Shown: positions 19,293 through 23,106 of the stretch, in pieces
Position numbering within the stretch: the first letter of the stretch is position 1
Layout of the letters: every line of letters begins with the position of its first letter
From: Massilia niastensis DSM 21313
GTDB lineage: Bacteria; Pseudomonadota; Gammaproteobacteria; Burkholderiales; Burkholderiaceae_D
Length of the DNA stretch: 64,000 bases
Assembly: GCF_000382345.1 (NCBI RefSeq)
Contig: NZ_KB908076.1
Coordinates: 62,001-126,000 of the forward strand
Direction of reading: 5' to 3'
Translations under genes and position numbers: made by a program
The notes under the pieces: generated by a model
Database searches by the model: none
Seen by the model: only the letters and a program-made list of their open reading frames with translations
Told to the model about the DNA's origin: nothing

Positions 19293-19698
19293 TCGGGGCG
19301 GACATTCACCGGTTTTGCGACAGGGGCCGATGACGCGTTGCGCACCTGCCTCCTGCCGCCGCACCGCTTGTCGTGCCCGAGGGATGGCATTCAGGGTCAG
19401 GTCTGTCATTCGGACATGGACGCACAACCCTTGCGAAATCTCAGAACGGTTTTAAGTATGCTGAGACTTTTCCCTCTTTCCGACATGGTCCGTGATGCGC
19501 GGTTAAAGTGGACCCATCAGTCGAGACACTTTGCCGTTTAATTTAAGCCGTGTCCGTTCTGCTTCCGCAGCTGTTCGGCGCTGCCCCGCACTGCTTTCCT
19601 GTGGCCGCTGGAGGGCACATTCTTCGTGCAGATTCCCGGAACAGCTTATGGCATCATGTGTCGTAACGCCGAATCGAGACTTCTGCAGGAGACATGCC
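19293..19698. other. intergenic region with a possible IS end remnant
   Basis: These 406 bases show no supported gene. At 19507-19541 the pattern AGTGGACCC-N7-GAGAC, followed by TTTAA, matches the start of the IS3-like remnant at 22937 with identical spacing between the first two blocks. The strand reading away from it has no intact transposase. Confidence 0.4.
19507..19541. mobile_element. possible IS3-family terminal remnant
   Basis: AGTGGACCC (19507-19515) and GAGAC (19523-19527), then TTTAA (19537-19541), mirror the end at 22937-22967 (AGTGGACCC, GAGAC at the same 16-base offset, TTTAA). Only the end-like sequence is recognisable; no transposase frame accompanies it. Confidence 0.35.
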
Positions 19699-19941
19699 AT
19701 GACTGTCGATACCAGGAAAATTGATGAAGTGGTGCTGGCGCTTTTCCAGCTAACCCTGCATGACCGCTACCGGGCCTGGAAAAGCTTCGACTGGGATGTC
19801 CTGAACCGGCTGTATGAACAGGGCCTGATCTGTGACCCCGTCAACAAAACGATGTCCGTCGTCCTCACCGACGAGGGCATGGAGAAATCAGCGCGACTCT
19901 TCAACGAATACTTCACGGTGTCCAGCGAAGCGCAGAAGTAA
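19699..19941 (+). CDS. DUF6429 family protein
   Basis: An 80-residue protein beginning MTVDTRKIDEVVLALFQLTL and containing RAWKSFDWDVLNRLYEQGLI, DPVNKTMSVVLTDEGMEKS. This is the pattern of the DUF6429 family, small proteins of unknown function often found beside mobile or transposon-related DNA. I chose ATG 19699, preceded by GCAGGAGACATGCC, instead of the longer upstream opening. It has lower GC than its surroundings and lies between two IS-like ends, which suggests acquisition by transfer. Confidence 0.75.
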   Translation: MTVDTRKIDEVVLALFQLTLHDRYRAWKSFDWDVLNRLYEQGLICDPVNKTMSVVLTDEGMEKSARLFNEYFTVSSEAQK

Positions 19942-20106
19942 GTCCTCGTGCAGCGTCAGCTGCAGGCTGCGCGCCGCCGTCGGACAGCGGCGCGAGTTGC
20001 ATCAGCCAGCTGCCAAGGACTTGTACTGGTGTCGGAAACCACGAAGCGCGGTGACCGCTTTGGCGGCTTCATCGCCACGCTGCCGATGATCACCTTGCTT
20101 GCCTGA
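19942..20106 (+). pseudogene. remnant of a DUF3147-like membrane protein gene
   Basis: Directly after the DUF6429 stop, frame 1 stays open to TGA 20104-20106. Its last part reads VSETTKRGDRFGGFIATLP followed by MITLLA, closely resembling the N-terminal part of DUF3147 membrane proteins (VSEVAKRSPGFGALVASLP-type). Upstream residues are Arg-rich and non-hydrophobic, the expected Met is missing, and the stop interrupts the first conserved helix, so it looks like a truncated gene. Assignment rests on this short match only. Confidence 0.4.
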
Positions 20107-20145
20107 TCGGGCCCCTCCATCGCCGGGAAATCCTCCTTGCGTGAG

Positions 20146-20220
20146 CGATGGAAGAACGACGTTCCGGCCGGAACGGAACGCCGCCGGTCTTATCATCTTC
20201 TTGATGCGCGAATAAGCACG
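20146..20220 (-). pseudogene. inverted, decayed copy of the anchor-protein 3' end and its hairpin
   Basis: Read on the minus strand, about 75 bases match the end of the anchor gene at 18487-18556: the codons around CATCAAGAAGATGAT, the spacer AAGACCGGCGGCGTTCCG and the GGCCGGAACG hairpin arm. There are several substitutions, a two-base deletion at the stop codon, and a shifted frame. The match stops near 20220. It is therefore a degenerate inverted repeat of a gene end, placed between the DUF3147 remnant and the CarH-like gene. Confidence 0.6.
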
Positions 20221-20247
20221 CCATTCGGGTCAGGTCCTGCCCCTTCC

Positions 20248-21192
20248 TCACCTATGAGGCGGCGCTGGCGCACTGGATGCATCGCTGGCAGGACAGCCCG
20301 GCGCGAAGGCATGACGCTGTCGCCCTTCCTGCATCGCGTTAGAGGCTTCCTCCAGAGTGCTGAAAATGCGTACCCCTCTTGGCACCTTATCAAGCCCGAC
20401 TACGCCGGCTCCGCCCACCCATAATTGAATCCCGTGTTCCAGTTGCAGCCTTAGCTGCCTGAGCATCGGACTGATGTTCTTCTTCGGGAAAGAGGCGCTG
20501 AACGAAAGTCCAACGATGTGCGTGCCGTAGGCTTTGGCTGCGGATGCGATCTCCGGGAGAGGGGACTGCGCACCAAGGGAAATGCAGCGTGCCCCGCTCA
20601 CGGTAAGCGCAGCCTCTACCATCAGCGTGCCAAGCGTGTGCAATTCGCCAGGAACCGTTGTGAGAAGTATACGAGGCCAGCCAAGCGGGTTCAATGCATG
20701 AGGAAGCGCTTCCCTGATCAAGGCTTGCACTGTCTCCGTGTACAAGTGCTCGTCGTGTATCTCGATCGTACCGGCGGCCCAGGCATTGCCGACTTCATTG
20801 TTTAGACGGGGCAAGAGGTTCAGGACAAAGCCTTCCAGTCCAAGGCGAGTTAGCGCGCTCCGTAGATTCTCACGCAACTGGTTCGGGTCTCTCTTCAGCA
20901 GCAGATCGATCAACTGCCGGCCTTCTTCTCCCGCACCGGTGACGACAGGTGTCCGTTTCTTTTTGATCAGTTCATGGAGCTGCGCCTCGTCAAGCGGCAC
21001 CACCATGCCAGGTCGCAAGCCCGCATCCAATAGCAGCTTGATGAGCTTGATCCTGCTCACCTGCTCTACGGAATACATGCGATTTCCTGCGTCATCGCGG
21101 TCCGGCATGGGAAAGCCGTAACGGTCTTCCCATTTTCTTAATACTTCCTTTGCAATCCCTGTTTCACCGGATACCACTGATATTGATACCAT
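20248..21192 (-). CDS. MerR-family regulator with B12-binding light-sensor domain (CarH/LitR type)
   Basis: A 314-residue regulator. Residues 1-70 form a MerR helix-turn-helix (LRKWEDRYGFP, AGNRMYSVEQV). Residues about 90-165 are the helical cap with the photoreceptor motif W-x9-E-H (W138, E148, H149), and residues 175-290 are a Rossmann B12 fold with E183-x-H185, the lower cobalt-ligand position. These match Thermus CarH W131, E141, H142 and H177 almost residue for residue. CarH binds DNA as a tetramer with adenosylcobalamin in the dark and releases it in light. It is divergent from a chemoreceptor gene, with two dyads between them. The C-terminal 25 residues are a low-complexity tail. Confidence 0.85.
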   Translation of the reverse strand: MVSISVVSGETGIAKEVLRKWEDRYGFPMPDRDDAGNRMYSVEQVSRIKLIKLLLDAGLRPGMVVPLDEAQLHELIKKKRTPVVTGAGEEGRQLIDLLLKRDPNQLRENLRSALTRLGLEGFVLNLLPRLNNEVGNAWAAGTIEIHDEHLYTETVQALIREALPHALNPLGWPRILLTTVPGELHTLGTLMVEAALTVSGARCISLGAQSPLPEIASAAKAYGTHIVGLSFSASFPKKNISPMLRQLRLQLEHGIQLWVGGAGVVGLDKVPRGVRIFSTLEEASNAMQEGRQRHAFAPGCPASDASSAPAPPHR

Positions 21193-21210
21193 TTTTGCCT
21201 CAAAATTCTA

Positions 21211-21225
21211 TTTGTCTAAGACAAA
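21211..21225. promoter_or_regulatory. operator-like dyad 1 in the CarH/chemoreceptor intergenic region
   Basis: TTTGTCT (21211-21217) and AGACAAA (21219-21225) are perfect 7-bp arms around one base. On the minus strand it abuts a -10-like TAGAAT (complement of 21205-21210) of the regulator gene, and on the plus strand it covers the -35 region before TATATT (21234-21239). Binding here could control both divergent genes. Confidence 0.55.
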
Positions 21226-21254
21226 ACCTATGTTATATTAATTTCTCTTCAGAA

Positions 21255-21269
21255 ACAAAACTGTTTTGT
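21255..21269. promoter_or_regulatory. operator-like dyad 2 in the CarH/chemoreceptor intergenic region
   Basis: ACAAAAC (21255-21261) and GTTTTGT (21263-21269) are perfect 7-bp arms around one base, 37 bases downstream of dyad 1. Both dyads contain GACAAAAC or its complement GTTTTGTC (21220-21227, 21263-21270), suggesting one protein binds both. It lies in the chemoreceptor leader, 30 bases before the ATG. Confidence 0.5.
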
Positions 21270-21298
21270 CAGCCTTGGCGTCACTTTCAGGATCTACT

Positions 21299-22954
21299 AT
21301 GCTCAGCACAGGATTATCGGGTCTTACCATCAGGGCCCGGGTATGTATCGGATTCGCAGTAATACTCTTCTTGATGATTGTTCTTACAGGAATTGGTGTC
21401 AGTCGCGTCAACACGGTTTCCGCGGGCTTGAGTACCATCGGGGACGTCAATAGTGTAAAGCAACGCTATGCGATCAACTTCCGCGGCAGCGTACATGACC
21501 GCGCGATAAGCCTGCGTGACCTGACGCTTGTCGAGAGTGACGACGAGATCAAGAAAGTCCTGTCCGACATCGCGCGCCTGACGTCCGACTATCAAAAGTC
21601 AGCGGTGCTGCTTGACGGGATGTTCGGCGAGCGCACTGACACGCGTCCTGACGAGCGGCAAATCCTGGCCAGTATCAAGGAGATCGAGGCTCGCACGCTA
21701 CCGATGATTGCAAAAGTAATCGCGCTGCGCCAAGCGGGCGAGCCTGATCGGGCAAAGGAGCTGATGCTCACGGAAGCCCGCCCCGCATTCGTGGAATGGC
21801 TGGCCCGCATCAACAAATTCATCGATCTGCAGGAAGAGATGAACCAGTCCGAGTCCGCGCACGCCAGGGAAGTGGCAAGCGGGTTTCAGGAGCTGATGTT
21901 GATTATGTGCGCTGCGGCAGTGGCCACGGGGACCCTCGTCGCAGCCGTGATTGTCAGGGCAATATTGCGAGCATTGGGCGGCGAGCCGGCACAGGCAAGC
22001 GCGATTGCGAACCGCATTGCCACAGGCGATCTTGCTGTCGTGATCGATACCGACGAGAGCAACCGTTCCAGCGTACTGTTTGCAATGAAGGACATGCGGG
22101 ACAGTCTGCTGAAGATCGTTGCGGAGGTTCGCAGCAGCACACACGCCATTTCAGCCGCAACCCATGAGATTGCCTCTGGTAATCTCAATCTATCGTCCCG
22201 TACCGAGCTGCAGGCGTCTTCGCTTCAAGAAACCGCTTCCGCAATGGAGCAGCTGACGTCGACGGTGAAACAGAATGCAGATAACGCGCTCCAGGCCAAT
22301 CGCCTTGCGGTATCAGCCGCAGCTGTGGCGCTCAAGGGTGGCGAAGTCGTTTCTCAGGTGGTGAAGACGATGGAGTCGATCAATACCTCGTCCAAGAAAA
22401 TCGTCGACATCATTAGCGTGATCGACGGGATCGCCTTCCAGACCAATATCCTCGCTCTCAATGCCGCAGTGGAAGCTGCGCGCGCAGGCGAGCAAGGGCG
22501 CGGCTTCGCGGTAGTGGCGACCGAAGTACGCAACCTGGCGCAGCGCTCCGCAGCGGCTGCGAAAGAGATCAAGATATTGATCGGAGATTCGGTCGACAAG
22601 GTTGATGCAGGAAGCCAGCTCGTCGCCGAAGCGGGCTCGACGATGGATGAGATTGTCGGGAGTGTGAATCGGGTGACCGACATCATGGCCGACATCACGG
22701 CGGCAAGCCAGGAACAGAGCGTTGGTATCGAGCAGGTCAACCGCGCCATTGGCCAGATGGATCAGGTGACCCAGCAGAACGCGGCACTCGTCGACGAGGC
22801 GGCTGCCGGAGCCAGTTCGCTGCAAGAGCAGGCGAAAAATCTTGGCAACGTCGTCGCCATTTTCAAACTGGCCGGCAGGCATGCAAACCCTCAAGGCCGG
22901 GACCGTGTCGTTCCGGCGCTCGCAGGCACGCTCTATAGTGGACCCCGAAGTTGA
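21299..22954 (+). CDS. methyl-accepting chemotaxis protein, 3' end altered by an IS remnant
   Basis: A 551-residue chemoreceptor. An N-terminal membrane helix (about 15-35) is followed by a four-helix-bundle sensor domain, a second membrane helix (about 195-215), a HAMP domain, and a long signalling coiled coil with the conserved hairpin [20 protein letters not shown] and [19 protein letters not shown]. It controls the CheA-CheW array. ATG 21299, behind AGGA, is preferred to an upstream TTG (21266). The last residues ([11 protein letters not shown]) are encoded by the IS3-like end at 22937, so the native C-terminus, including any adaptation-enzyme tether, is lost. Confidence 0.85.
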
Positions 22955-23106
22955 GACGGTAGTTTAAGCTGTCGTCCTTGAAGGGATGGTAGCGAATGAG
23001 TGAAGGTAAACAACGCAGGGTGCACACACCGGAGTTCAAGGCTAAAGTTCCGTCGTTGGCCGGGCAAGGAAGGTTTGTGAAGGCGCCCGGCAGCGAGTTC
23101 GTCTGA
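22937..23106 (+). mobile_element. IS3-family remnant (left end and orfA start)
   Basis: The segment opens with AGTGGACCCC, an IS3-like terminal motif, followed after about 60 bases by ATG 22996 of a transposase orfA start (MSEGKQRRVHTPEFKAKV). The frame then diverges from the family and stops at 23106 after 36 codons. There is no orfB. It sits between the chemoreceptor tail and the convergent pilC gene and marks a rearrangement point. Confidence 0.7.
22996..23106 (+). pseudogene. truncated IS3-type transposase OrfA
   Basis: The 36-codon frame starts with MSEGKQRRVHTPEFKAKV, the typical helix-turn-helix start of IS3-family OrfA, then shifts into unrelated residues (PSLAGQGRFVKAPG) and ends at TGA. 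Normal OrfA is about 90-100 residues. It is not expected to be functional. Confidence 0.7.

Follow-up and report, generated by a model that had tools for sequence, protein, structure and literature searches.

Light-responsive B12 regulators and the Massilia niastensis locus

B12-based photoreceptors are known as switches for carotenoid and light-repair genes. In CarH, described in Thermus thermophilus and Myxococcus xanthus, a helix-turn-helix (HTH) domain of the MerR type is combined with four-helix and Rossmann B12-binding domains, and the adenosylcobalamin (AdoCbl)-bound form represses in the dark and lets go in the light (PMC9304148, PMC9614035, PMC10442372). The operators known for CarH consist of 11-bp direct repeats with the pattern nnnnTnnACAn, and the operator overlaps the -35 element (PMC9304148). 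Class II LitR proteins, such as PplR of Pseudomonas putida and PmlR2 of P. mendocina, are also MerR light-response regulators, but of the two B12 domains retain only one, and recognize a TGTACA-N12-TGTACA site; PmlR2 is a repressor whose site lies over the -35, and class II targets include photolyase, fatty-acid and folate genes (PMC9758184). The subject of this work is a stretch of 64,000 nucleotides from Massilia niastensis DSM 21313 (contig NZ_KB908076.1, positions 62,001 to 126,000; hereafter the window), in which the gene for a CarH/LitR-type regulator stands divergent from that of a methyl-accepting chemotaxis protein (MCP). Comparison of sequences indicates that the regulator is probably a dedicated, AdoCbl-dependent dark repressor of its own gene and of the divergent chemoreceptor gene, both of which would be derepressed by light.

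20248..21192, minus strand: open reading frame (ORF) of the CarH/LitR-type regulator, 314 residues (ORF list, Pfam, alignment, predicted fold)
Regulator domains: MerR HTH, residues 3-61; four-helix B12-binding_2, 92-160; Rossmann B12-binding, 174-264
21299..22954, plus strand: MCP, 551 residues, 4HB_MCP_1 and MCPsignal (Pfam), with a variable C-terminal tail that ends in IS3-family debris
22931..23049, no strand assigned: IS3-family (ISPpu29-like) insertion sequence (IS) debris at the 3' end of the MCP gene

Control of chemoreceptor expression by light has a precedent in Pseudomonas syringae DC3000, where light alters MCP expression via LOV and BphP1 (PMC8508746); these are other photoreceptors, and the system is not one of a B12 repressor standing divergent from its receptor gene. 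In Vibrio cholerae, blue light lowers expression of the chemotaxis pathway, with no tie to a B12 regulator in the part of the text examined (PMC5241685), and a word search of the available text of a review on light-controlled motility did not return cobalamin, CarH or B12 (PMC5812497). In the parts of the literature examined, no CarH/LitR protein was described as controlling a chemoreceptor. The first-pass annotation, made from the DNA letters, knew of no description of light-tuned taxis by control of a chemoreceptor; no B12-based case was found in the searches. Since the LOV/BphP1 case is already on record, what is new is the use of a B12 photoreceptor and of a divergent module dedicated to the receptor: the components are known, whereas their wiring was not found in the literature searched.

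The regulator and the chemoreceptor

The regulator shares with CarH its fold and the class I LitR/CarH domain plan, an N-terminal MerR HTH and both B12-binding domains, as seen in the predicted fold and in Pfam, where MerR_1, B12-binding_2 and B12-binding all score above cut-off. In the alignment with T. thermophilus CarH, residues W138, E148, H149 and H185 correspond to W131, E141, H142 and H177, completing the W/E/H/H photosensor set of class I, and E183 and G188 match likewise. All six are kept in 9/9 members of the clade to which the regulator belongs (alignment of 78 rows, locus L033 still included). Domains and aligned residues thus agree with the initial description of a CarH-type protein that retains every light-sensor residue and is, by this evidence, a putative light sensor. 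A further MerR match (C20, L002) was considered as a paralogue and set aside, as only N-terminal residues 11-77 align (E up to 1e-3), which by this search does not make it a B12 paralogue.

The divergent gene encodes an MCP of the 4HB type, with a four-helix sensor module and an MCP signalling domain (Pfam) that is complete (347-502, numbered from TTG 21266); no match to a HAMP domain was reported in the Pfam scan. The ORF list placed the start at TTG 21266, within the gap, whereas relatives begin at the codon equivalent to ATG 21299, and the gap is therefore taken as 21193-21298, in agreement with the 106 bases noted at first. What adjoins the regulator sets it apart from CarH, which lies beside carotenoid genes: its neighbours are the chemoreceptor gene and pilB/pilC-type genes, a comparison that covers the neighbourhood, carotenoid genes not having been sought genome-wide.

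Predicted operator and promoters in the intergenic region

21193..21298, no strand: divergent intergenic region, 106 bp, 33% GC against 66% for the window
21211..21225, no strand: dyad 1, TTTGTCTAAGACAAA, the predicted, conserved family operator
21212..21239, plus strand: predicted MCP promoter, TTGTCT-16-TATATT with extended -10 TG, its -35 within dyad 1 (consensus scan)
21232..21259, minus strand: candidate regulator promoter, TTTGTT-16-TATAAC, conserved in the window and in genomes G034 and G020, with a weak -35
21255..21269, no strand: dyad 2, ACAAAACTGTTTTGT, not conserved, its left arm overlapping a conserved AACAAA (candidate regulator -35)

The two dyads of the gap are, as first reported, perfect 7+7 repeats, with a GACAAAAC/GTTTTGTC pair at 21220-21227/21263-21270, and are unlikely to have arisen by chance: when the gap was shuffled 5000 times by dinucleotides, at least two perfect 7+7 dyads appeared in 0.08% of the shuffles with spacers up to 1, in 0.56% up to 3 and in 2.2% up to 9. 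Dyad 1 is identical letter for letter in the aligned gaps of G034 and G020, the genomes with the closest regulators, and its 15 bases are also present in G124 and, on the opposite strand, in G223. Dyad 2 had been proposed as a matched second operator, a role that was rejected since its sequence is not kept in G034/G020; its left arm overlaps the conserved AACAAA, which fits a regulator -35.

The motif TTTGTCNNNGACAAA occurs within 450 bp upstream of the regulator in 35/96 related loci exactly, in 59/96 with up to one mismatch and in 74/96 with up to two, against 0/96 at 0, 1 and 2 mismatches for the reversed motif; these counts leave out L033, whose contig is that of L037 (equal in length and identity). 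From this distribution, dyad 1 is the predicted operator of a wider family of B12-MerR regulators and not private to the regulator-MCP pair. Canonical Burkholderiales members of this family, whose neighbours are, by eye, of amine-oxidase, CFA and photolyase types, share the domain plan and the same operator, TTTGTCNNNGACAAA, but form a separate branch of the tree and differ at the operator centre, which is TAA/TTA in the clade of the window. The core TGTCTWAGACA is found in 9/9 loci of that clade and in 1/87 others. In the 6.59-Mb M. niastensis genome, TGTCTWAGACA and TTTGTCNNNGACAAA have one exact copy each, at dyad 1. No wider regulon is evident there, because site counts do not exceed those of reversed controls, either for TTTGTCNNNGACAAA with up to one mismatch (5 sites versus 5) or for TTGTCNNNGACAA (5 versus 7).

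In 33 of the related loci at least two operators are present (up to two mismatches, within 450 bp), and 19 of these, including L083-L086, L089, L092, L100 and L117, have operator starts 62-63 bp apart. This distance equals some six turns of the helix and suggests that a loop is formed or that binding is cooperative.

The predicted MCP promoter scores 9/12 to consensus, in a scan that found two promoter-like sites in 301 bases against a shuffle mean of 0.6, and is kept in G034 and, save for one -10 base, in G020. Its -35 lies under dyad 1, as the first-pass annotation had stated; the conserved dyad thus overlaps the -35 of the predicted target promoter, as expected of class I LitR/CarH proteins and as described for the CarH operator (PMC9304148). 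Matters differ on the regulator side. The -10 that dyad 1 had been said to abut is not kept across the three gaps that were aligned, and transcription from it would begin inside the ribosome-binding site. TTTGTT-16-TATAAC fits better; this candidate falls under the threshold of the consensus scan and is absent from its list. Its -10 overlaps that of the MCP promoter, and its -35, which is weak, overlaps dyad 2. Should both predictions be correct, the two promoters stand back to back with an overlap, and occupation of dyad 1 by a protein would obstruct the -35 of the MCP promoter together with the opening bases of the regulator transcript. In G223 and G124, whose pairs are more distant, neither of the two spacing patterns was found.

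Recurrence of the regulator-MCP link

Related loci were gathered in several searches. The first gave 40 places, of which one is the window itself and six, short or weak, were left out; the second contributed 40 new places (the 20 top-ranking ones and 20 more chosen by hand for spread), the remainder being largely from genera g46 and g80; an order-wide search added 20 (the 16 best new ones and four from further down), which stand outside the tree of 77 regulators. The search of genome contigs for related loci gave three loci only. Neighbouring ORFs were passed through a home-made filter on third-position GC content (GC3), and neighbours without a Pfam match were named by eye. The negative gap of the MCP in L036 stems from the ORF caller having picked too early a start.

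Within the genus, 18/62 genomes, that of M. niastensis included, hold a regulator match at E up to 1e-20. The closest regulators, in G034 (70% identity) and G020 (64%), stand in the same divergent pair, with MCPs 80.6 and 79.5% identical to that of the window, and N-terminal MCP matches above 52% are confined, among the 62 genomes, to these two and the genome itself. The surroundings of the pair differ, with rpoA/rplQ and dsbD-like genes (by eye) in G034/G020, and pilC/pilB-type genes and IS3 debris in the window. A tree of 77 regulators places the protein in a supported group of nine (97/95), which is retained in a FastTree of all 96 regulators (support 0.98), and an MCP gene adjoins the regulator in 8/9 of its loci: divergently in the window, G034, G020, G223, G124 (at a contig edge) and G426, and in tandem in G025 (PAS-HAMP-MCP) and G238 (BLUF, then MCP). 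With a profile of this group, 399 genomes of the order were searched and 121 had a match (E up to 1e-70); most of the 20 loci taken were by eye of the canonical kind and 0/20 joined the group, which is therefore seen only in the window's own family.

A second, separate clade of six (100/99; L113, L114, L045, L051, L052, L053) has an MCP gene within 1 kb in 6/6 loci, with a CheW gene between regulator and MCP in L051 and, by eye, in L052. In L045, L051, L052 and L053 the B12-MerR gene sits between pilT-pilU-type genes and the MCP gene. Among the regulators of these four loci L051 has the complete sensor set, L045 is without the sensor E, and L052 and L053 are without most of the set; no operator was found within 450 bp in the four. 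They form a series of decaying photoreceptors, and to judge by their residues some of the members linked to chemotaxis probably no longer sense light.

Elsewhere an MCP gene lies near the regulator in 5/81 loci (L034, L112, L131, L135, L136), where a background rate of 0.0098 per locus, itself drawn from only four distant matches, predicts about 0.8; the loci share ancestry, so that such counts are non-independent. They vary, however, in whether the genes are divergent or tandem, in whether the receptor is of the 4HB or PAS type, and in what flanks them, and the linkage is therefore likely to have arisen several times independently. In L135 and L136, from another genus, a regulator in canonical context is followed 148 bp on by a PAS-MCP gene on the same strand, apparently a separate linkage.

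The first-pass annotation had named neighbouring genomes as the place to look, and the divergent pair is indeed present in G034, G020 and further members of the clade. It held that absence of the pair or the dyads from all relatives would refute its proposal; pair and dyad 1 recur, while dyad 2 does not. Control of the chemoreceptor, as then proposed, is supported, since the pair, the operator and the operator's place on the predicted MCP promoter all recur.

A proposed dark repressor of a chemoreceptor, and its alternatives

By analogy with CarH, the AdoCbl-bound regulator would in the dark occupy dyad 1 (21211-21225), where it covers the -35 of the MCP promoter and the region in which its own transcript begins, and would shut both divergent promoters. 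Green, blue or UV light would cleave the Co-C bond, upon which the regulator would leave the operator; MCP and more regulator would then be produced, light thereby adding one receptor type to the chemosensory array, and the raised regulator level would close the loop again in the dark. AdoCbl binding, dark repression, release by light and the effect on taxis are inferred. Since it would work through gene expression, the response would take minutes to hours and would determine sensitivity, with no direct steering. The genome encodes an adenosyltransferase able to make AdoCbl as well as chemotaxis machinery, with 10 CheW-domain matches and 34 first-look candidates for an MCP query.

Several observations weigh against such a switch. 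The CarH operator consists of tandem 11-bp direct repeats, whereas that of the window is a single 15-bp inverted repeat, so that oligomer and binding mode may differ from CarH; one half-site of dyad 1, TNGACA, fits on one strand the TnnACA core of the CarH repeats by eye. The regulator scores 125.9 bits (E 1.8e-36) with the NCBIfam CarH equivalog NF052513, under the curated cut-off of 400, and is for this reason filed as CarH/LitR-type and not as CarH proper; the cut-off excludes the group, given that six tested relatives score 114-139 bits. One member of the clade, G146 (L087), has the operator with no MCP gene seen within the 12.5 kb examined. The loss of sensor residues in L045, L052 and L053 and the lack of an operator in the pilTU-linked loci mean that a light sense is not needed for the MCP link. 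The tail of the MCP is altered by IS debris, and a photolyase gene is found elsewhere in the genome (one match, on another contig), though the genome has no second exact operator.

Some of these points bear on a control independent of B12 or light, in which the operator would be bound without AdoCbl, or B12 supply or redox state would be read instead. CarA in Myxococcus acts without B12, and with 3/4 pilTU-linked relatives having lost sensor residues while retaining the MCP neighbour, the MCP link can outlive the photosensor. The CarH of Cystobacter moreover joins the use of AdoCbl with CarA-like DNA binding (PMC9304148). With W, E, H, H, E183 and G188 intact in 9/9 of the window's own clade, such control is considered unlikely here. 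An MCP activator that twists the promoter in the MerR manner, switched on by light or B12, would suit the type of DNA-binding domain and the imperfect (9/12) MCP promoter; MerR activators, however, work on spacers of 19-20 bp from a site between the hexamers, while a spacer of 16, an extended -10 and a dyad over the -35 make up a repressor layout, which leaves activation with a slim chance.

That the operator precedes most family members whatever their neighbours could mean that it serves autoregulation only, the MCP gene being a bystander that shares the gap. This is improbable, as MCP genes are enriched beside regulators in two clades, divergent and tandem, and the spacing from operator to -10 on the MCP side is conserved in three genomes. 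Least probable is that the module is a decaying relic, inactivated in M. niastensis by an IS that inserted where the MCP gene ends: the IS3 debris does extend into the stop codon and the tail differs, but the signalling domain is complete, both frames are open, and the tail also varies in relatives. With this debris (22931-23049) on one flank and a DUF6429 gene (19531-19941) on the opposite one, the regulator-MCP pair may have moved as a unit; a search of a plasmid collection with the left flank (19900-20330) gave no match.

For the light-released dark repressor, a broader interpretation has about even chances of being correct. M. niastensis would possess a one-operator, one-target system, part of a branch of B12 photoreceptors specialized for behaviour and not for photoprotection, in which Burkholderiales regulators are wired to chemoreceptors, some beside stand-alone EAL and BLUF genes, with a second lineage in pilT-pilU-linked MCP clusters; light would set the receptor make-up and hence the direction and mode of movement. 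If the repressor reading is true, non-phototrophic bacteria would gain a transcriptional route from green or blue light to movement through a cofactor sensor other than opsin, flavin or bilin, and the recurrence of the pair in relatives suggests that the choice of cues followed by such bacteria is governed by light. The operator is compact, with 15 bp and a single exact copy per genome here, and the family-wide motif opens to reading the regulons of more than 200 genomes with such regulators.

Other neighbourhoods of B12-MerR regulators

Eight regulators from Massilia relatives (L039, L040, L041, L042, L043, L044, L046, L047) form a clade (100/100) with a common type of neighbourhood. In L039 the regulator is preceded by a small PAS protein, by eye like photoactive yellow protein, and an AMP-ligase, and in L043 by an aromatic amino-acid lyase (Pfam); for the other members neighbours were named by eye and not all are complete. 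The arrangement looks like a photoactive-yellow-protein cluster that ends in the B12 regulator; beyond it, L046 has a PilT-like ATPase and L039 a PAS-GGDEF-EAL protein. A literature search on photoactive yellow protein and Massilia found no paper.

In L112, two perfect operators lie 45 bp apart, with a divergent stand-alone EAL gene and MCP sequence behind it, an arrangement in which light control of cyclic di-GMP is possible. Finally, L081, L082 and L104 carry BLUF-domain genes directly 3' of the B12 regulator (Pfam), followed in L104 by a PAS-GGDEF gene, and thus hold two types of photoreceptor in one cluster.
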